Source: Novosphingobium ginsenosidimutans
GTDB taxonomy: Bacteria > Pseudomonadota > Alphaproteobacteria > Sphingomonadales > Sphingomonadaceae
DNA length: 64,000 bases
Direction: 5' to 3'
Assembly: GCF_007954425.1 (NCBI RefSeq)
Contig: NZ_CP042345.1
Span: 496,001-560,000 of the forward strand
Made by a program: the position numbers and the translations under genes. Below the pieces are notes generated by a model that worked only from the letters and a program-made list of their open reading frames with translations, made no database searches and was not told the DNA's origin. Of the stretch, positions 6,888-47,275 are shown piece by piece (position 1 is the first letter of the stretch; each line of letters begins with the position of its first letter).

Positions 6888-8000
6888 ATGGCCCGCAAGT
6901 TTCTTTATGTGATTGCTGTCCTGATCGTGCTGTTCATCGCCGGGCGGCTGGCGCTGGGTTTCTACCCAGAACAACTCACCCGCCTTGCCTTTACGCCCGG
7001 TGCGGCGTTCGAAGCGCAGCCCCCTGCCCCGGCCAACGCCTATGCCGATCCGGCTCGCTGGATCGCGCGGCCCGATTTCAAACAAGCTGGCCCGGCACAG
7101 TGGCGGCCCGCCGGACTGGCCAAGGATGCCGAGACACTTTCGGTCCCGGTGTTCTTCATCCACCCGACCAGTTATCTCAAGCGCGCGCACTGGAACGCGC
7201 CGCTGGATGACCAGGATGCCAACCGCATCGCAGGCATGATGGTGCGCGCCGCGGCAACGCCCTTCAATGTCTCGACCCAGCTCTGGATCCCGCGCTACCG
7301 CCAGGCCACCTTCGGTGCCTTCGTGACCGACAAGCCCGAGGCGCAACAGGCTCTGGACTTGGCCTATGGCGATGTCTCGGCCGCGTTTGACCAGTTCATC
7401 GCTTCCATTCCCACTGGCAGCCCCTTTGTGATCGCCGGGCACAGCCAGGGCGGGTATCATCTTAAGCGGCTGCTGGCTGACAAGGTCAAAGGAACGCCGC
7501 TCGCCGCACGGCTGGTCGCTGCCTATCCAATCGGCTGGCTGGTCGATCAGACCACTGACCTGCCGGCCATGGGAACCCCGGCCTGCACTGCCCCGGACCA
7601 GACTGGCTGTGTTGTCTCGTGGCTGAGCTACACCGACGGCGGCGATGCCAGCATGATGATCGGGGCCTATCAGCGCTTCGCCGGCAAGCGCCAATCCGGG
7701 GCACCGGCGCTGAGCTATCTCTGCACCAATCCGTTGACCGGCGTTGCCGGCGGGCAAGCCCCTGCCAGCGCCAATCTTGGCGCGATGGTGCCCGACAGCA
7801 AGCTTGAGAACGGAACATTGGAGCCCAAGCTGGTGGGGGCGCGGTGTGACGCGCAAGGAATCCTGCGGATCGGAGCCGGGCCGGAAATGGGCCCCTTCGT
7901 GCTGCCCGAGGGCAACTACCACGTTTATGACGTGCCGCTGTACTGGGCCAACCTTCGTGCAGACTTCGTTCGCCGGGCCAAGGCATGGCGGCCGCGCTAA
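6888..8000 (+). CDS. DUF3089 alpha/beta hydrolase
   Basis: 370-residue protein with an N-terminal membrane anchor or uncleaved signal (about residues 5-24). It has an alpha/beta-hydrolase nucleophile elbow GHSQGG with Ser186. The FFIHPTSY block near residue 90 is typical of DUF3089 proteins. The HVYD motif near the C-terminus could supply the catalytic His. The substrate is unknown. The anchor suggests activity on the periplasmic side. The gene end overlaps the ruvX start by 16 bases. Confidence 0.85.
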
Positions 8001-8467
8001 CCACGACCTTTGCGCCAGATTTTCGTGCCGCACTGCCCAGCGGCGGGGCACTGCTGGGCCTTGACCTTGGCACCCAGACCATCGGCACGGCCTTCTGCGA
8101 TGCTGGCTGGCGCTTTGCTTCACCCGGCAAGACGCTGAAGCGTGGCAAGTTCGGCGCAGACCGCCAGGCGCTCGCTGCGCTGGTGGCCGAGCGCGGGGTT
8201 GTTGGCGTGGTGATCGGCCTACCGCTCAACATGGACGGCAGCGAAGGTCCGCGCAGCCAATCAAGCCGCGCCTATGCCCGTAATGTGGCCGAGGTGCTGA
8301 ACCTGCCAGTCCTGCTGTGGGACGAGCGTTGGTCCACCGCCAGCGCCGAAAGCGCACTGATCGCCCAGGACATGAGCCGCGCCAGACGCGCCGACCGGAT
8401 CGATGCGGCGGCGGCCGCGGTAATCCTGCAAGCCGCAATCGATGCGCTTGCCGGCGGGCTGGATTAA
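7985..8467 (+). CDS. ruvX: Holliday junction resolvase-like YqgF/RuvX nuclease
   Basis: 160-residue RNase H-fold protein. [15 protein letters not shown] carries the first catalytic Asp. The [15 protein letters not shown] block, the Glu in [13 protein letters not shown] and the final [11 protein letters not shown]sp complete the family pattern. YqgF proteins act in pre-16S rRNA maturation and/or junction resolution. The gene overlaps the upstream hydrolase, and its last bases overlap the stop of the convergent gene at 8464. Confidence 0.93.
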
Positions 8468-9366
8468 GCGAACAGCTCGCAACGTCGGGCAAGCGCCTCG
8501 GCAGCGACCAGTCGGCTGCCCGACAGTTCTGCGCGCTGCCACACCGCATCGCGGGAGGCGGCGTCCGTTGCCATCCCGGCCAGCGCATCCCAGCAAGCCA
8601 GCCGCATCCGGTCACTCGGGTGGTGGTGGGCGAAGCGTTCCGCAAGGTCCAGCGCCTGGTCGCCGCCCAGCCCGACCGCAATCCGCATCAACGCCTCGCT
8701 CGGCCCGCCCGATACGATCGCCCCGATCTGCCGCTTATCGAGATCGAAGCGGTACTGGTCGAGCCAACCCTGCGCCCCCGTGGTATGCATGATGTTGAGC
8801 GAGACCGACAGCGAATCGGCCGGATGCTGGGCATGAACATCGCGGTGGGCGCGGTATAGCATCAGCTTGCCCTCCTCCAGCCGCGAGCGTTCAACAAAGC
8901 GCAGGCTTGGAACCGGTTCATCGCGCGCGCCGACAACCTCGCCATAGTCATACTCGTAATAGTCGCTCCAGTATCCTGGGCCGAAGTAGCCCAGGGTCAG
9001 AAAGCTGAAGTTGTGATCGTGCGGGAGGCCATAGACGAACGAAGTCCCGCCCGAGGCGCGCAGCATATGCTCGTCGGTCGAGGGCCAGAGATTGGCGCGG
9101 ATGAAGAAGTTGCCATTGGGCGGAGCCAGCATGACCACCTGCGGACCATAGGAGCTGTCCAGCACATCCTCGCGGTGGCGCTGCGCCAGCGCGGCGATCA
9201 GGAGATCGCCAAGGAACTGCTTGTTGTTGCCCAGTCGCCGCAGCCACCGCGCGGCATTATCGAGCCGCTCCGGATCGTCGAAATCAACGCCCACTGCCGC
9301 CAGTCCATCGCAGGCTTCGGCCAGGCTGGCGGCATCTTCATCGATCAGCTCGATCACGCGGGGCAT
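8464..9366 (-). CDS. Unrecognised protein, cupin-like core plus helical-repeat tail
   Basis: 300 residues, no family I can name. A helical N-terminus (about 1-70) precedes a beta-rich aromatic core. This core holds H116-D117-H118 in GLPHDHNF and a second His cluster, H174, H178 and H181, then NIMHTT. The HxH and later His spacing resembles a cupin or Fe(II)/2-oxoglutarate metal site. Residues about 220-295 look like HEAT-type helical repeats. It is the last gene of a three-gene minus-strand unit and overlaps the preceding gene by 13 bases. No signal peptide is seen, so it is probably cytosolic. The enzyme role is inference. Confidence 0.7.
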
Positions 9367-27222: not shown

Positions 27223-28038
27223 CTACTGTTCCTGATGCTGTTGTTCAACTGCCAGTGAGACTGCCAGCCGAGTTTCCCCACCGCCCCATGACAGGCCGGT
27301 TACCGGTGCTGCCTCGGCATAGTCTCTGCCAGTTGCAACCCGGACATAGCGTTCGTCCGGGCTGATCCCGTTGGCGACATCGAAGCCGACCCAGCCCAAC
27401 CCCTCAACGTGCGCCTCGACCCAGGCATGGCTGGCCTCTTGTTCGATCCGATCATCCATCATCAGGTAGCCAGATACATAGCGTGCCGGCAGGCCGAGCG
27501 CGCGGACCGCGCCGATGAAGACATGGGCGTGATCCTGGCACACGCCGGCGCCCAGTGTCGCCGCTTCTTCCGCCGTGGTCTGGACCGAGGTCTCGCCCGG
27601 CAGGTAATCGACCGCCTCGCGCACCAGGGCGGAGAGGCGGTGCAGCATCGGGACCGCCTCGTCTCGCGGCACGTCGAGCCCGCTCATGATTGCGCGCACC
27701 TTGGGCCCGGGCCGGGTCAACGGCGTCTGAGCGAGGAATGCCCAGAGCGGCATATACCCGGAATGCTGGCCGATCACGCCGTGATTGTCCGCCGTCGCCA
27801 CGACACCCTCACAGCGAACGATGACTTCGCTCGCCCCCGGCACAACTGAGACGAGCACAACGTGGTTATGGTTGTGATCCTCGAACCGCACTTCCTCAAC
27901 CGCGCCTTCATAGCTCATCTGCCACGCAAGCACCTTCTGGCCCTGCGTGGTTTTGGGCGAAAGGCGCAGCCGCTGCAGCCCGTGCGCGACCGGCTGGCCG
28001 AACTGGTAGTGCGTGGTGTGGGCGATCCTGAGGCGCAT
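27223..28038 (-). CDS. Transglutaminase-like cysteine protease of the Anbu operon
   Basis: 271 residues. An N-terminal beta domain (about 1-100) precedes a transglutaminase-like core with Cys167 (GAGVCQDHAH), His204 (EASHAWVEAH) and Asp220 (VGFDVAN). No signal peptide is seen, so it is cytosolic. It overlaps the alpha-E gene by one base. It is predicted to hydrolyse or ligate amide bonds in the peptide chemistry proposed for this operon. Confidence 0.9.
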   Translation of the reverse strand: MRLRIAHTTHYQFGQPVAHGLQRLRLSPKTTQGQKVLAWQMSYEGAVEEVRFEDHNHNHVVLVSVVPGASEVIVRCEGVVATADNHGVIGQHSGYMPLWAFLAQTPLTRPGPKVRAIMSGLDVPRDEAVPMLHRLSALVREAVDYLPGETSVQTTAEEAATLGAGVCQDHAHVFIGAVRALGLPARYVSGYLMMDDRIEQEASHAWVEAHVEGLGWVGFDVANGISPDERYVRVATGRDYAEAAPVTGLSWGGGETRLAVSLAVEQQHQEQ

Positions 28039-38497: not shown

Positions 38498-38713
38498 CCT
38501 GTCCCTCCGTTTGGCCAGCGAGTGTGGGGCGAACATGCGCACAAGTCGAGAGGACGGCGAGCTTCGTCGCGGATGCGGCGCTCCATAGCGGACAGACCCA
38601 GTTCCGCACTTCGCCGCCGCAGGGCAGATCGGTTGTCGCGTGACCGTCATCACGGACGGATAGGATTGACTCGCCTAAGATTTTTCCCGTGATAGCCAAC
38701 TTGGGAGCGAATC

Positions 38714-39790
38714 ATGATCAGCCTTGCGACCTATAACGTCGAAAACCTGTTCGATCGTCCGGCGATCCTCAACCTCAAGGATCAGGCCGCGATCAACCAG
38801 CGGCTGGCGCAAGTGGCAGAGCTGCAGAACCTGATCGACAAGGATAGCTACTCCGCTGCCGACAAGGCCCGGATCAAGGCGCTGGACAACGAGCTGTCGC
38901 GCTTCATCGAAATCCAAGAAGACGTGGGCAAGCTGTTCACGGGTAGGGGTAATAACCGCCGGGTGACAGCCAGCGGTCGCGGAGACTGGATCGGCGGGAT
39001 CCAGTTCCTGCGCGCCAATTTCAGCGACCAGCAGCGGCTCAACACCGCCGCGATGATAAAGCAGATCAACGCCGATATCCTCTGCCTGGTCGAGGTGGAG
39101 GGCAACCAGGCGCTCCGCTCGTTCAACGCCGAACTGCTCAACTATCGCTACAAGCAGCATCTATCGATCGATTCCCCCAACGATCCGCGCGGGATCGATC
39201 TGGGGCTCTACTTGCGCACGCCGACGCTAGGCCGGATCCAGACCAACGCCTTCGACAAAAAGGCCGGCAAGGGCATTTTCAGCCGCGATTGCCTTGAGAT
39301 CGAATGCCAGCTGCCGTCCGGGGAATCGCTGTTCCTGTTGCTCAATCACTTCAAGAGCAAGATGAACAACTCGCCCGAATCCGATACCCGCCGCAAGGGG
39401 CAGGCCGCGCGGGTGGCCGAGATTGTCGCCCAGCGCTATGCTGGAACGATCGATTACTACGCAGTAGTTGGCGATTTCAACGACACGCCTGATAGCGGCC
39501 CAATCAGCCCTCTCGCCACCTCACCCCATATCCGGGATGTCTTCGACGTGGTGAACCAGCCCGCCAATGATCGCTGGACCTACTTCTATCGCGGCCAGTT
39601 CAACCAGATCGACTATGTGATGGTCTCCCCCGCCCTCGCCGCCAAGGTGCGCGGCGTCGAAGTGCTGCGCCAGGGTATGCCCGTGGCCGCCGACAAGCCC
39701 GAGCTGGGCATCACCCCCCTGCCCGGCATAACCGGCCATTCGACTGCAGCGTCGGATCACGGGGCGATCAGAGTCAAGCTCGACCTATGA
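38714..39790 (+). CDS. Endonuclease/exonuclease/phosphatase family protein
   Basis: 358 residues. EEP-fold metal-dependent hydrolase: N-terminal SLATYNVENLFDR, a central CLVEVEGNQAL with the metal Glu, NHFKSKMNN, VVGDFNDTPDSGP and the final AASDHGAIRV. No signal peptide is seen. The family includes nucleases and phosphodiesterases. It is divergent from the SDR and convergent with the radical SAM gene, and not obviously part of either unit. Confidence 0.88.
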   Translation: MISLATYNVENLFDRPAILNLKDQAAINQRLAQVAELQNLIDKDSYSAADKARIKALDNELSRFIEIQEDVGKLFTGRGNNRRVTASGRGDWIGGIQFLRANFSDQQRLNTAAMIKQINADILCLVEVEGNQALRSFNAELLNYRYKQHLSIDSPNDPRGIDLGLYLRTPTLGRIQTNAFDKKAGKGIFSRDCLEIECQLPSGESLFLLLNHFKSKMNNSPESDTRRKGQAARVAEIVAQRYAGTIDYYAVVGDFNDTPDSGPISPLATSPHIRDVFDVVNQPANDRWTYFYRGQFNQIDYVMVSPALAAKVRGVEVLRQGMPVAADKPELGITPLPGITGHSTAASDHGAIRVKLDL

Positions 39791-39934
39791 TGGCGGGACC
39801 TGCCAGGTCGGTCGGCGGTTCTGCCGTGCCGTCGCTCGCTCCAAGCCACTGCCCGCATCGGTAACCTGTAAGGCGGCGGCGACATTGGCTGTTCGGCGGC
39901 CTGATGGGGCGAAAGATTCGATCCGTCCGGTCAG

Positions 39935-41059
39935 TCAGGCCAGCTGCTGCGTTTCGAGCAGTCCGATTACGGCATCGAACATGATCTTGACCGATCTGCG
40001 GCAGGTGCCGGTCTCGGTTCCATAGAGATGCCCGTGCTCGGCAAACTTGTTTGAGAAGAACACACCCCCGCAAAGCTGGAAATAGGCGCATTCGCTGCGG
40101 CAGCGCTCGACAGAGCGCGATATGGCATCATCGATCCTGGCTGCGGCTTCCGATTTGAAGATATCGTTCAAGCTATCGTTCTTCAGGTTCCCAATCGTGA
40201 AGCCATTGAATGCCGGAGCATAGATTCCGGCGAACTCCGGACTGTACGGATAAACGTTCCCCAACCTGTCGACCGTGGAGATTTGACCCTTCTTGGCCTC
40301 TTCCGGCGTTCTTCGAAAATCTTTATTCTTCCTGATTTCCTGCAATATCTGCACAACGTTCCGATATTCCCGAACATCGATTTTTTCCTGATTTCGCAGA
40401 TATAAAGCGAATGTTTCTTCGATGAATGCCCGGAACTGCGCATCGTACGTGTTCGACTGACCAAATGAGGTCGCGAAGTTCGCGTTCTCAATTTCCTCGA
40501 TATTGAAGCCCAGCCGGTCGAAGCCGTTGTCGACGAAGAAATTGAACCAGAGTTCCGCGTTCCTGATCGTTTCAAGCGTCACAACCGAAAGGGCCGCAGG
40601 ATTTCTGCCATGGCGGCGCAGCAAGTCGATGCCTCGCATGACCGATTGATGCGTGCCCCTGCCCGATCGAGCCCGACGGTTCAGATCATGCAGCGGCTGC
40701 GGCCCGTCAATGCTGACGCCGATCCCGATCTCAAACTCGTTGAAGATCTCACACCACTCGTCATCAATCAGAGTGCCGTTGGTTTGGAGCGACTGGTGGA
40801 CCCGAACGCCGCGAGACGCCTCGAACGCGCGGATTGTAGCATTGGCCTGGCGATAGAAGGACTTCCCTGCAGTCAGCGGCTCGCCGGCGTGCCATTGCAA
40901 CTCAAACTCGTCGCCAAGGGCGAGGTTGATGTTTTCAAGGATTAGCCGCAGGTCCGCGCCCGGAAGCCTGTCGTTCACCTCGCGGTTCGGGACATAACAA
41001 TAGCGGCAATCCAGATTGCAGAACGAAGTTGGCTGTACGATTAGAAGGGGAATGGCCAC
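39935..41059 (-). CDS. Radical SAM/SPASM peptide maturase (GrrM/OscB-like)
   Basis: 374 residues from GTG at 41059. The start PLLIVQPTSFCNLDCRYCYVPNR holds the radical SAM CxxxCxxC (C14, C18, C21). WHAGEPLT and SIDGP are further SAM-fold blocks, and the tail has auxiliary-cluster Cys C320, C324, C330 and C353 (CRSECAYFQLCGG). This matches maturases that build three-residue cyclophanes in RiPP precursors. It lies 15 bases after the short precursor gene. The base composition is noticeably AT-richer than the neighbours, suggesting transfer. No exporter or protease gene is adjacent. Confidence 0.88.
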   Translation of the reverse strand: MAIPLLIVQPTSFCNLDCRYCYVPNREVNDRLPGADLRLILENINLALGDEFELQWHAGEPLTAGKSFYRQANATIRAFEASRGVRVHQSLQTNGTLIDDEWCEIFNEFEIGIGVSIDGPQPLHDLNRRARSGRGTHQSVMRGIDLLRRHGRNPAALSVVTLETIRNAELWFNFFVDNGFDRLGFNIEEIENANFATSFGQSNTYDAQFRAFIEETFALYLRNQEKIDVREYRNVVQILQEIRKNKDFRRTPEEAKKGQISTVDRLGNVYPYSPEFAGIYAPAFNGFTIGNLKNDSLNDIFKSEAAARIDDAISRSVERCRSECAYFQLCGGVFFSNKFAEHGHLYGTETGTCRRSVKIMFDAVIGLLETQQLA

Positions 41060-41074
41060 TCTTCGCCGGATCCA

Positions 41075-41284
41075 TCAAGGCGGCGATCGGCCAAAGCCAT
41101 CGCTCCAGCCGCCATCCTTGTCACGCCACTTGTCATGCCAATCCGAAAAGTGGCCCAGGTCTTCCGCAATAGGTCGGCCGATTGAGATCCGGACCATCGC
41201 GTTCTCATCGATATCGCGAATCCGCCGCAGCATATCTTCGCGAAGGTCTTCGATCATCTTCGGGGTTAATTCGGGCTTGCTCAT
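41075..41284 (-). CDS. Candidate triceptide (cyclophane RiPP) precursor
   Basis: 69 residues from the ATG at 41284, with GGAGG 7 bases upstream. The N-terminal 45 residues look like a helical leader (MSKPELTPKMIEDLREDMLR). The tail has five aromatic-X-Asp/Arg triplets: F46-S-D48, W49-H-D51, W53-R-D55, W60-S-D62 and F64-G-R66, ending SPP. This spacing is the substrate motif of three-residue cyclophane-forming radical SAM enzymes, and the maturase gene follows immediately. Leader and core limits are inferred. Confidence 0.82.
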   Translation of the reverse strand: MSKPELTPKMIEDLREDMLRRIRDIDENAMVRISIGRPIAEDLGHFSDWHDKWRDKDGGWSDGFGRSPP

Positions 41285-41287
41285 CAC

Positions 41288-41679
41288 ACGGCCTCCGAAA
41301 CCTTGGCTGATGGGTAGAAGCTACGCTAAATATCTGCCTAAGCAAGATAAATTTTACATCGTCCCGTCGCTATCGCGGCAAGCCGCGCGCAGGCGACCAG
41401 TCATCCGCCTTAGCCCGCTCGATCCGGCCTGCCCTTCGCAGCCGCCCCACTCGCCTCACCCCGTTTCCGGTCAAGGCGCTGTTCCGCGCCGCTTTCCCGC
41501 ACCCCCGCAACGGCCGATGCGCGTTGTGGATGGAGGCGATCCGGGCTATACCCGGCAAGCTACCTGTCGAAGGGTCCGGCATCCGGCGGCGCCACTTACT
41601 GGCCTGCCCCTTTCCAGCTTTTCCGCCGAATAGCGTCAGCGCGTCCATTCCGGCTGCGCGGGCCACAAGGAGAAGCGTC
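41288..41679. other. 392-base region upstream of the precursor, no gene seen
   Basis: The part next to the precursor (about 41300-41360) is AT-rich and may hold its promoter. On the minus strand TTGCTT and TAGCTT lie 16 bases apart, a weak fit to sigma-70. The rest (41380-41670) is GC-rich with no convincing start plus ribosome-binding site. It ends at the ribosome-binding site of the cold-shock-like gene. Confidence 0.55.
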
Positions 41680-41886
41680 ATGATGTTGACCGGCAAGATC
41701 GCCAATTACGATGCCATGCTGGGGGCCGGGTTCATTTTTCCCGATGCCGGGGGTGAGCGCCTGCCCTTTGCCCGGGCAGACCTGCACCGACCCGCCTATA
41801 TCCCCCAGGAAGACGACCGGTTCAGCTATGAGCCCCGCAGCGACGGCGTCGGGGATTGCCGCGCCACGAACTTGCGCAAGGCCTGA
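41680..41886 (+). CDS. Small cold-shock-domain-like protein
   Basis: 68 residues, ATG with AAGGAG 7 bases upstream. The sequence follows a cold-shock fold: MLTGKIANYDAMLGAGFIFP resembles the GxIKWFNxxKGFGFI strand, and DLHRPAYIPQEDDRFSYEPR aligns with the second RNA-binding part. The aromatic RNP residues are partly replaced (Tyr-Asp for Trp-Phe), so it is a divergent Csp-like protein. Confidence 0.68.
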   Translation: MMLTGKIANYDAMLGAGFIFPDAGGERLPFARADLHRPAYIPQEDDRFSYEPRSDGVGDCRATNLRKA

Positions 41887-42023
41887 TCTTGTCCGGGTTC
41901 GGGCAGGCTAGTCGTGCCCTGTGAAGCAGATAGCGGGCGCGCGACCGCCGGCTGTTCTGCCCCGCAGGCGCGATCAGTCCCCTCAGCTCGGCTGCACTGC
42001 ACTCTTGATCAAGGATACTGCCC

Positions 42024-42200
42024 ATGGCCCTGCGCCAACGCCTGTTCGCCCGCCTTGCCGCCCTGTTCCCGGCGCGCCGCGCCGCCACCGACTCCGCCAG
42101 CCTCAATGCGCCGTCGCTCGCGCCGTCGCAGCGGATGGGCAGCTATGCCTCGCCATGGAATATCTTCCGCCTGCGCCCCCGCGAGAGGACACGATCATGA
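42024..42200 (+). CDS. Small basic protein, unknown function
   Basis: 58 residues. ATG with AAGGA 8 bases upstream. N-terminus MALRQRLFARLAALFPARRA is an Arg-rich amphipathic helix; the rest is Ser/Pro/Arg rich. Its TGA overlaps the ATG of the next small gene (ATGA), which supports both being real. No family recognised. Confidence 0.5.
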   Translation: MALRQRLFARLAALFPARRAATDSASLNAPSLAPSQRMGSYASPWNIFRLRPRERTRS

Positions 42201-42394
42201 CCGCCGCCCATCCCGATCACGCCGCCAGCCTGACTGACGACAACCGGGAAGCGGTGGTGATCCAGAGCGAGGCAGATGCGATCGTGTCCTACAGCGTCAC
42301 GCATTACCGCGTCGGACCCTATTGCTATACCGACCTCAATCACGCCCGCGCTGAGTTGCGGCGCAGCCAGGCGGCGGCCCGAAAGCTCCGCTGA
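42197..42394 (+). CDS. Small protein, unknown function
   Basis: 65 residues with AGAGGA upstream. The mid part reads VVIQSEADAIVSYSVTHYRVG followed by PYCYTDLNHARAELRR, an alternating pattern of a small alpha/beta or helical fold. It is translationally coupled to the preceding gene and lies 48 bases before uvrB. It is not a uvrB regulatory element that I recognise. Confidence 0.55.
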   Translation: MTAAHPDHAASLTDDNREAVVIQSEADAIVSYSVTHYRVGPYCYTDLNHARAELRRSQAAARKLR

Positions 42395-42442
42395 GCGCGA
42401 AGCCTGTTGCGGAACAAACCGCAAACCCCCATAGTCTGCAAG

Positions 42443-45098: not shown

Positions 45099-45773
45099 TC
45101 AGACCTTGCCGAACTTGCTTTCGAACCCGGCGGTGTCACCGGCGGCGAGGAACTTGGCCTGTTCGACCCAGCTGTCCTTGGCCGGACGCCCGGCGAAGGC
45201 GCCAAGCTTGGTATCGAGCTCGGCCAGGTCGGCCTCGGTCATCGCCGCGATCTGGGCGAAGGTGGTGATGCCAAGCTCGGGCAGCAGCTTCTGCAGCTTG
45301 GGGCCAAGGCCCTTGATGCGGCTGAGGTCATCCGGTCCGGCAGGGGCGGCGGCAACCGGCTTGGCCTCGGCCTTCGGCTTGGGTTCGGCCTTTGGCTTGG
45401 GCGCAGCCTTGGGCTTTGGCTCGGTCTTGGCCGCCGGCTCTGCCTTTGGCTTGGGTTCAGCCTTGGGCTTCGGTTCGGCCTTGGGCTTGGGCGCAGGCTT
45501 TGCTTCGGGCGCAGGCACCGGCGCAGCCACCGGCACGGGTTCCGGCGCTGGCGCCGGCGCGGGCACGATCACCGGTTCGATCTTGGCGGCCGGCGGCGCA
45601 TCGATCAGCGCCTGGTTGCGCGCGGCCGGGGCGGCGCCTTCGTCCAGTACGTCGGGCTTGTAGCTGCGCTCACGCGGGGCGCTGGAGCGGCCAAACAGGT
45701 ACCAGACCAGCAGCAGGCCAAAGACCAGCGCGCCGGCGAAAATCAGCAGGTTGGGATTGTTGAGATCGATCAT
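45099..45773 (-). CDS. Membrane-anchored helix-hairpin-helix protein with PKPKAE repeats
   Basis: 224 residues. One N-terminal membrane helix (about residues 8-28), a cytosolic Pro/Ala/Lys-rich stretch (about 60-145) with repeated PKPKAE units, then a C-terminal helix-hairpin-helix domain (DDLSRIKGLGPKLQKLLPEL and the ITTFAQIAAMTEADLAEL part) like DUF4332 proteins. HhH domains bind DNA or small partners, so a membrane-tethered nucleic-acid role is possible. It overlaps the flippase stop by 4 bases. Confidence 0.8.
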   Translation of the reverse strand: MIDLNNPNLLIFAGALVFGLLLVWYLFGRSSAPRERSYKPDVLDEGAAPAARNQALIDAPPAAKIEPVIVPAPAPAPEPVPVAAPVPAPEAKPAPKPKAEPKPKAEPKPKAEPAAKTEPKPKAAPKPKAEPKPKAEAKPVAAAPAGPDDLSRIKGLGPKLQKLLPELGITTFAQIAAMTEADLAELDTKLGAFAGRPAKDSWVEQAKFLAAGDTAGFESKFGKV

Positions 45774-47275
45774 GGCTTGCCTTCCTCAGCGACATCGGAC
45801 GAGCCGCCTACGTTCTTGCGGAACAGCACGCGGTCCTCGGGGCCGAAACCCTTGTGCCAGATCACGTAGCCGTAAGTGAAGAGGATCGCGGGCAGACCCA
45901 GCGCCAGTTCGGCCCATTCGGGCAGGTAGCGCGTCACCGCCCAGCCGACCAGCACCGCCGGGGCGACCGCCCAGACCAGCGGCCAGCGGAACGGGTTGAC
46001 CGGCGCCTTGAGCAGCCGCCCGAGCAACCAGCCCTTGGCCAGCGAGGCAAAGCCCAGCGCCAGCAGCAGCGCCCCGGCGGCAGCGGCAGCGGCGAACTTG
46101 TCGTTCAGGCCATAGTGGCGCACCAGCAGGATGCCGCCCACGGTCAGCAGCGCCTGGAAGGCAATCGTCGCCAGCGAGAGCCACAGGTTCTTGAGCCGCG
46201 CGACATAGACCAGCGCTGCCTCGCTCACCACGGCCGTGGCGGCAACCACTTCGGCCAGCAGCAGGAAGGTCAGCGCCCCGGTGCCGCCAACGAACTGCGG
46301 GCCGACCAGGCCCATCACCGCCTCACCCGGAATAGCCAGCGCCAGCGCAATTCCGGCCTGTGCGGCGATGATCCAGAAACCGACCTGGTTGACCTGCGCC
46401 GCGATCGCCGCGTGGTTGCCATCGCGCAGGTTGCGGGTGATGACCGGGCCCAGGATCGGCTCGAAGCTGGTCTTCAGTTTCTGCGGCAGCGAGGCGACCT
46501 GCTGCGCGGCGTAATAGACCCCGACCGCGACCGGCGAGGTGAAGAAGCCGAGCAGCGCGATGTCGAGCTTGCGCGTGCCCCATTCGACCATGTCCGCCCC
46601 CGCCAGCGGCGCCGAGAGCAGCGCCAGCTTGCCCAGTCGCAGCGGGTGCGGGTGCCAGCCGCGCGGGGCCCCGAAGGTCCGCAGCAGCGGCCACAGCGCG
46701 ACCAGCAGCGCCGCCACCTTGGCCAGGATGAACGACAGCGCCAGGCCCGCGGCGGGCAGCACGAACAGGAAGCCGATCGCCGCCAGGGTCTGCACCCACG
46801 GCTCGACCAGGCTGCGCGCCCGCACCGTTGCGCCAACGTTGTAGCGATAGGCCAGCGCCGCCAGCGCAATGTCGGTCAGCGCATTGGCAACAATCGCCAG
46901 CGGCAGCAGCCGGTCCCATTCGTTGTATTCGCCGCTGGGGAACATCGGCGCCGGGAACAGGTACAGCAGCGCTGCAGCGCCGAGCGAGAGCAGCAGGGTC
47001 AGCGTCATCGCATCGGCGATCACATGGACTTCCTCGCGCGGGTCTTCCGACAAGCGCTGGGCCAGACCGCGGCGCTGCCCCAGCACGCAGAGCTGGGCGA
47101 TCAGTTCGACAATCACCAGCGCCGAGGCATAGCGGCCGAGCGCCTCAACCCCATAGAACCGCCCGGCGATGAACAGGAACGGCGCCGTGCCGCCCAGCCG
47201 CAAGACGAAGCCAAGGAAATTGGTCCGCCCGCCCTTGGCAAGGGCGGCAATATCCTGATCCGGGGGCTGGCTCAC
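45770..47275 (-). CDS. Polysaccharide/lipid-linked oligosaccharide flippase
   Basis: 501-residue MOP-superfamily membrane protein with about 12-14 hydrophobic helices, of the Wzx/RfbX type. Conserved short loops such as YRYNVGATVRARSLVEPWVQ are visible. It flips lipid-linked glycans across the inner membrane. It sits between gpsA and the HhH gene with 4-base overlaps on both sides, so it is part of a tsaD-gpsA-flippase-HhH operon. Confidence 0.85.
   Translation of the reverse strand: MSQPPDQDIAALAKGGRTNFLGFVLRLGGTAPFLFIAGRFYGVEALGRYASALVIVELIAQLCVLGQRRGLAQRLSEDPREEVHVIADAMTLTLLLSLGAAALLYLFPAPMFPSGEYNEWDRLLPLAIVANALTDIALAALAYRYNVGATVRARSLVEPWVQTLAAIGFLFVLPAAGLALSFILAKVAALLVALWPLLRTFGAPRGWHPHPLRLGKLALLSAPLAGADMVEWGTRKLDIALLGFFTSPVAVGVYYAAQQVASLPQKLKTSFEPILGPVITRNLRDGNHAAIAAQVNQVGFWIIAAQAGIALALAIPGEAVMGLVGPQFVGGTGALTFLLLAEVVAATAVVSEAALVYVARLKNLWLSLATIAFQALLTVGGILLVRHYGLNDKFAAAAAAGALLLALGFASLAKGWLLGRLLKAPVNPFRWPLVWAVAPAVLVGWAVTRYLPEWAELALGLPAILFTYGYVIWHKGFGPEDRVLFRKNVGGSSDVAEEGKP

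Follow-up and report, generated by a model that had tools for sequence, protein, structure and literature searches.

A short precursor peptide and its GrrM/OscB-type maturase: a minimal and probably mobile RiPP unit in Novosphingobium ginsenosidimutans

Introduction

Where would a ring-locked peptide act, and who would trim it, when its genes come with no partner for either task? The question is raised by two adjacent genes of Novosphingobium ginsenosidimutans within a stretch of 64,000 nucleotides (assembly GCF_007954425.1, contig NZ_CP042345.1, positions 496,001 to 560,000 of the forward strand; hereafter the window, whose own numbering is used throughout). The first encodes a 69-residue precursor peptide and the second a radical S-adenosylmethionine (SAM)/SPASM enzyme of the GrrM/OscB family. 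The explanation we favour, with a probability of roughly three in four, is that precursor and GrrM/OscB-type cyclophane maturase form a minimal, horizontally moving unit for a ribosomally synthesised and post-translationally modified peptide (RiPP), with a new precursor type and a known enzyme family in what is probably a mobile form.

A precursor adjoining a GrrM/OscB-type maturase

The elements of the pair are as follows.

41292..41296, minus strand: GGAGG ribosome-binding site, 7 nt ahead of the precursor ATG
41075..41284, minus strand: precursor gene, 69 residues, ATG start (open reading frame and homology to precursors beside related maturases)
41174..41224, minus strand: leader block, residues 21-37, RIRDIDENAMVRISIGR (alignment with two homologues)
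41087..41149, minus strand: core, residues 46-66, FSDWHDKWRDKDGGWSDGFGR, with FSD, WHD, WRD, WSD and FGR as predicted three-residue cyclophane sites (motifs and the OscB specificity given in the review PMC11002830)
39935..41059, minus strand: GrrM/OscB-family radical SAM/SPASM maturase, 374 residues, GTG start (family model, alignments, AlphaFold2)
40997..41020, minus strand: CX3CX2C motif (C14, C18, C21) of the SAM-binding [4Fe-4S] cluster (alignments)
40001..40102, minus strand: C-terminal auxiliary-cluster cysteines C320, C324, C330 and C353 (alignments)

The maturase, read on the minus strand from a GTG at 41059 to a stop ending at 39935, scores 335.4 bits (cut-off 310) against TIGR04261, with positions 1-362 of the 363 in the profile covered. 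The NCBI name of this model, which we take to correspond to IPR026357, itself combines GrrM and OscB. Pfam SPASM stays slightly below its cut-off (20.7 vs 21.5). All seven cluster cysteines are invariant, in 18/18 and in 88/88 aligned sequences, the larger alignment being an author-chosen set of the window enzyme, 81 of the 119 listed non-self matches and six loci. The AlphaFold2 model reaches a predicted local distance difference test score (pLDDT) of 95.8, and the top-ranked solved folds for it are 4k36 (anSMEcpe), 9gmc (ChlB) and 5wgg. Among the matches listed, the closest protein is 42% identical, and no relative was found in viral contigs. Two other identities were rejected: the anaerobic sulfatase maturase model gives 160.6 bits against a cut-off of 349, and the viperin models of PADLOC match weakly (36.6 and 26.2 bits). 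From family and motif we infer that the enzyme forms three-residue cyclophanes.

The precursor gene runs on the same strand from an ATG at 41284 to a stop ending at 41075, leaving 15 nt before the maturase. Its aromatic residues are confined to the end of the peptide: there is no Phe, Trp or Tyr in residues 1-45 and there are five in the last 24, four of which have Asp at +2 and the fifth Arg. The [FWY]-X-[DN] motif occurs four times in the last 28 residues, and among the other 358 of the 359 window open reading frames (ORFs) of 40-110 residues it is absent from this segment in 337 and present once in 21, never more often. Composition shuffles of the peptide reach four motifs with p 0.0016-0.0030, and the counts of Asp or Asn at +1 to +5 from an aromatic residue are 0, 4, 0, 1 and 1. 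The maturase is therefore adjoined by a precursor with aromatic-X-polar motifs, the arrangement by which triceptide systems are recognised. The precursor has no Cys.

The GrrA/OscA1 model TIGR04260 does not match the precursor, nor does any other NCBIfam family at E up to 10, and its best match in the same genome reaches 13 bits (cut-off 31) at a different place. Neither the signal sequence nor the Gly-rich repeats that mark loci L059 and L060 can be recognised in its translation by inspection. A search of about 5.8 billion proteins returned the precursor itself as sole match, probably because the small genes of its relatives are absent from that database, and a precursor profile found three weak matches among solved structures (best E 0.025). 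In viral contigs the core DNA pattern has no match; a shortened pattern has one, within a 251-residue ORF of a 325-kb contig, that we take as chance. The same holds for two tblastn matches of the precursor in plasmids (E 1 and 9), one to a protein of Deinococcus and one to a Burkholderia stretch that carries no annotation.

These results bear out much of a preliminary description of the locus made from the letters alone. The 69-residue peptide gene with its own GGAGG, 15 bases upstream of the maturase, lies where it was placed; C14, C18, C21 and the four late cysteines, then read from one sequence, are the seven that all 88 aligned sequences keep; and the GrrM/OscB likeness passes the TIGR04261 search proposed for it. 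The statement that the precursor is not of the Gly-rich-repeat type agrees with the missing TIGR04260 match and with inspection. Likewise, no dedicated exporter, peptidase or immunity gene was recognised near the pair, with models run on eight neighbouring ORFs and the other ORFs of at least 250 residues in 25-56 kb judged by eye.

Homologous pairs beside integron integrase frames

A search with maturase P0030 in 293 genomes of the order of genome G842 gives 11 matches with E values of 1e-25 or less, of which two are close: Alcanivorax nanhaiticus (G1270, 100% identical to P0030) and Saccharospirillum mangrovi (G1172, 56% to P0030 and 100% to P0025). Both have a short gene directly upstream, overlapping the maturase start by one and four bases and encoding 91 (L153) and 88 residues (L154), respectively. 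A profile of these two precursors picks the window peptide from 1281 window frames with 48.7 bits (E 4.3e-14; the next frame stands at 0.59), and with the same profile the highest score among 2000 shuffled versions of that peptide is 8.3 bits. Against 17993 frames of 173 loci (E up to 1) it matches only the precursors themselves and the loci holding the window copy. Twenty positions are identical across the three aligned precursors, among them R21, R23, I25, D26, I33, G36 and R37 in the leader and W49, H50, D51, W53, D55, K56, D57, W60 and G65 in the core. We propose the leader block, residues 21-37, as the segment recognised by the maturase. The relatives' pairs (L165 and L166) share with the window pair the homologous precursor, the gene order and maturases 38-39% identical to its own, but differ from it in the adjacent integron integrase frame, the overlapping genes and precursors of 88-91 residues with an acidic, Phe-rich tail. 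A signal sequence was seen by eye in none of the three.

The label "orphan" given to the locus in the preliminary description must accordingly be dropped, since related maturases do have homologous precursors directly upstream, and the neighbourhood survey then envisaged returns two homologous pairs where an absence of such precursors would have spoken against a RiPP locus. The suggestion of a sphingomonad version stands in one part. The enzyme is rare in its order: TIGR04261 is exceeded in 1/396 sampled genomes of the order, 6/386 of the class and 2/397 of the phylum, the own genome being counted each time, and of 41 genomes of relatives searched with the maturase 13 have a match with E up to 0.001, the strongest apart from its own being 3e-25 over 157 residues. 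The emphasis on sphingomonads did not hold, as the pair is sporadic and stands in two other hosts beside integrase frames. In the families of these hosts the cut-off is passed by 1/46 and 1/22 genomes. A sample of the gammaproteobacterial class gave 3/331 genomes at E 1e-40 or better, and none of these three loci matches the precursor profile. A tblastn search of plasmids with the S. mangrovi precursor returned four matches at E 3-9. Directly upstream of the GrrM-like enzyme of one of these three gammaproteobacterial genomes (G1495, L170/L174; 39% identical to P0030) lies a gene for an 81-residue peptide (L174:11841-12086) with WRDFNKGGFGKAYAADKKK, containing WRD, FNK and FGK, which is possibly a further, related precursor type. 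Rfam models find nothing on L165, L166 and L174 except four tRNAs, all in L174.

The setting of the two relatives points to integrons. Divergent from the A. nanhaiticus pair, and separated from the start of its precursor gene by 291 bases, is an integron integrase gene (TIGR02249, 395 bits; cut-off 265), and S. mangrovi has an incomplete integrase frame in a like arrangement (167 bits, below that cut-off). The S. mangrovi maturase is followed at once by an attC-like sequence (L166:7881-7946), found by eye and not returned by scans, in which the R boxes pair at 5/7 bases; then come a UPF0489 gene (7950-8636) and a second, more regular attC-like site (L166:8631-8699). In A. nanhaiticus an attC-like site is in two halves with an IS3 element between them: the first half overlaps the maturase stop and the second, ending in GTTAGGC, stands ahead of a SUKH gene, the halves having been compared by eye. 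All these calls rest on short box motifs, and the strict scans require 6/7 paired R-box bases. The pairs of the two relatives have a GC content of 0.357 and 0.366; the A. nanhaiticus flank, by comparison, stands at 0.598.

This order suggests that the relatives' pairs are gene cassettes with precursor and maturase as their sole contents: an integrase frame stands on one side of the pair and an attC-like site comes after it, as for a cassette, and two genes would suffice as the unit. If so, precursor and maturase alone are what travels, and exporter and protease would seem to have been absent from the start, not lost later. Genes for ring-locked peptides may, as this setting in two distantly related bacteria suggests, be able to move as resistance cassettes do. 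The S. mangrovi integron sits in a defence island, with an Avs3a gene (L166:2-4171, 2073 bits, cut by the stretch end) on one side and a retron type III-A phosphoribosyltransferase (PRTase)/reverse transcriptase (RT) pair (L166:10126-12682) on the other.

Predicted product

OscB, assigned to IPR026357, joins Trp C7 to the beta carbon of Asn/Asp and Phe C4 to that of Asn, between residues i and i+2, according to the review PMC11002830. Given these reported links at Trp-X-Asn/Asp and Phe-X-Asn, a product with up to four or five three-residue cyclophanes is likely. The maturase would recognise the conserved leader block of the 69-residue precursor, abstract a hydrogen at each Asp beta carbon and join that carbon to the aromatic ring two positions before. 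The predicted links are F46-D48, W49-D51, W53-D55 and W60-D62, possibly also F64-R66, and each would cost 2 Da, or 8 to 10 Da if all form.

Genomic context of the window copy

38500..41750, no strand: low-GC stretch between a short-chain dehydrogenase/reductase (SDR) gene and uvrB (GC 0.51-0.64 in 500-base windows)
38714..39790, plus strand: endonuclease/exonuclease/phosphatase-family gene, convergent neighbour of the pair (GC at third codon positions, GC3, 0.81, near native)

The rest of 36-46 kb has a GC content of 0.59-0.71, mostly 0.64-0.70, and GC3 is 0.67-0.69 in the pair vs 0.82-0.87 in the TonB-receptor, SDR and uvrB genes. The window genome presumably acquired the pair. The SDR-uvrB interval (window 38653-42407; L145, L146) could be aligned in two of eight relatives, G004, with a 443-residue protein and a ParE-like gene, and G008, with a TIR-TPR protein; since both hold other genes there, the interval is a variable slot of the genus. 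An incomplete duplicate of the uvrB start, with no counterpart in the window, is present in G004 as well. The neighbouring nuclease gene is present in 1/25 genomes searched, its own, and in none of the 24 relatives; it may have been inserted together with the pair, though its GC3 is near native. Nothing links it to the peptide pathway and it has no PADLOC match. Further off, a transglutaminase-like ORF was seen by eye at 27223-28038, 12 kb away, and a polysaccharide-flippase-type ORF lies at 45770-47275; for neither is there any sign of a connection with the pair.

Discussion

Several observations weigh against a mobile unit making a multiply linked peptide. Homologous pairs were found twice only. 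The strict scans miss the S. mangrovi site at 7881, and the attC-like hairpins of this host are modest, with bottom-strand z of -2.3 and -2.1 and top-strand z of -2.7 and -1.1, so that the site at 7881 has no bottom-strand bias. In the window, no attC-like site was found in 38.3-42.5 kb under the same 6/7 rule, and no integrase ORF was seen by eye in a look that covered the window, so that arrival by an integron is conjectural for this genome. On the side of the chemistry, FSD is common to the window and S. mangrovi only (SST in A. nanhaiticus) and W60-X-D62 is W-X-Lys in both relatives, therefore some sites may carry no cross-link. For the excess of Asp/Asn, p is 0.16 with the A. nanhaiticus peptide, 0.011 with that of S. 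mangrovi and 0.74 with that of G1495. Both the kind and the number of the links are deduced from family and motif.

If two genes suffice as a unit, the peptide would act inside the cell, or general host functions would trim and export it, and two-gene, cassette-like units without export genes favour these options. Export is a less probable alternative, in which the product is an antimicrobial or signalling peptide for use outside the cell, and peptidases and transporters whose genes lie elsewhere in the genome remove the leader and export the core. Antibiotics are indeed among the cyclophane peptides of related enzymes, darobactin and dynobactin being named in PMC11002830, and the sporadic distribution is that of an accessory trait. 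It fits less well that none of the three precursors has a signal sequence by eye, that the cassette-like unit counts two genes, and that no dedicated exporter or peptidase was recognised beside the window pair or its relatives, with models on some ORFs, others judged by eye and the rest of the host genome not searched.

A role within the cell could also be one in conflict with phages or mobile elements, the unit then being a defence-type cassette, which we consider improbable. The place of the S. mangrovi integron between Avs3a and retron genes, the contents of the slot before uvrB in G008 (TIR-TPR) and G004 (ParE-like) and the want of visible export genes would agree with it; this is, however, association by neighbourhood, and such islands hold other genes too. 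PADLOC gives the maturase weak viperin matches only and the neighbouring nuclease none, and around the A. nanhaiticus pair, a region outside the PADLOC search, lie an IS3 element, the SUKH gene and, judged by eye, glycine dehydrogenase genes. Bolder still, and in our view doubtful, is the thought of a whole class of complete RiPP systems travelling as single integron cassettes, with intracellular peptides, plausibly acting in phage or mobile-element conflict, and the window copy as an escaped cassette.

It is unlikely that the family enzyme performs another modification, such as no more than one or two links, confined to W-X-D, or links at W-X-K or F-G-R, or epimerisation: the family model and the W-X-D spacing fit OscB, and a thioether would lack its Cys in the precursor. 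It is very improbable that the insert is in decay or not expressed, or that an enzyme like the sulfatase maturases happens to have an ORF ahead of it by chance, for although the pair is isolated in its genus and the enzyme sits on a long lone branch, both frames are open, a ribosome-binding site precedes the precursor, every cluster Cys is retained, the precursor has homologues in like position and the anaerobic sulfatase maturase score stays far under its cut-off.

The minimal-unit explanation matters chiefly for what cassette borders can tell. If real, they delimit the genes that suffice for a working unit, here the precursor and one maturase, and the question of where partner-less cyclophane RiPPs act and who trims them becomes a two-gene test. 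Integrons are known for the spread of resistance genes; were the explanation true, RiPP biosynthesis would be linked to them as well. The conserved leader block and the dense W-X-D core would be useful for studying site choice by GrrM/OscB enzymes.

Comparison with known systems

The nearest known system is GrrM/OscB with GrrA/OscA1 (TIGR04261/TIGR04260), with which the window pair shares a maturase passing the model, an adjoining precursor gene and C-terminal aromatic-X-Asp/Asn sites. It differs from it in a precursor of 69 residues that passes no family model and has neither a signal sequence by eye nor a Gly-rich repeat. A GrrP-type periplasmic partner is known from GrrM systems. In an unrooted tree of the 88 aligned maturases, a split with support 100/99 sets 33 rows (GrrA-type alphaproteobacterial enzymes and those of Nostoc, Phaeobacter and Streptomyces plasmids) apart from 55 that include the window enzyme, so the latter is separated from the GrrA-type systems. 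Within the 55, a group of 51 (98/92; actinobacterial, Bacillus, Alcanivorax and Saccharospirillum enzymes) excludes the window maturase, which stands alone between the groups of 33 and 51 on a branch of 1.3 changes per column. Since the precursors are closely homologous although the enzyme falls outside the immediate group, the two partners may have evolved at different rates or have been exchanged.

Other short precursors are found in the family. A plasmid of Nostoc sp. TCL26-01 encodes, upstream of grrM, a non-GrrA peptide with W-X-D/N motifs (L116:1483-1689) that resembles the window precursor in its 68 residues, the lack of a signal peptide by eye and an F-X-X-W-X-D-X-W core pattern, but is 19% identical overall and lies 452 nt from its maturase, which falls among the 33 rows. 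A two-row profile of both peptides matches itself and one 68-residue entry, presumably the Nostoc seed. At L061:1171-1455 a 94-residue precursor with tandem NFPN repeats, of a Phe-X-Asn type in place of Trp, stands beside a GrrM over the cut-off, and on a plasmid of Streptomyces sp. ADI95-16 grrM (L117:3947-5170) neighbours genes annotated as lantibiotic dehydratase and lanthionine synthetase C family, possibly a mixed RiPP cluster.

AmcB, XyeB, DarE and DynA are related radical SAM/SPASM cyclophane enzymes, and the window maturase stays below the cut-offs of all four models (280.4/425, 81/450, 81/650 and 144/450 bits, respectively). In the S. mangrovi precursor, the WSK motif is reminiscent of the Trp-Lys link of darobactin.
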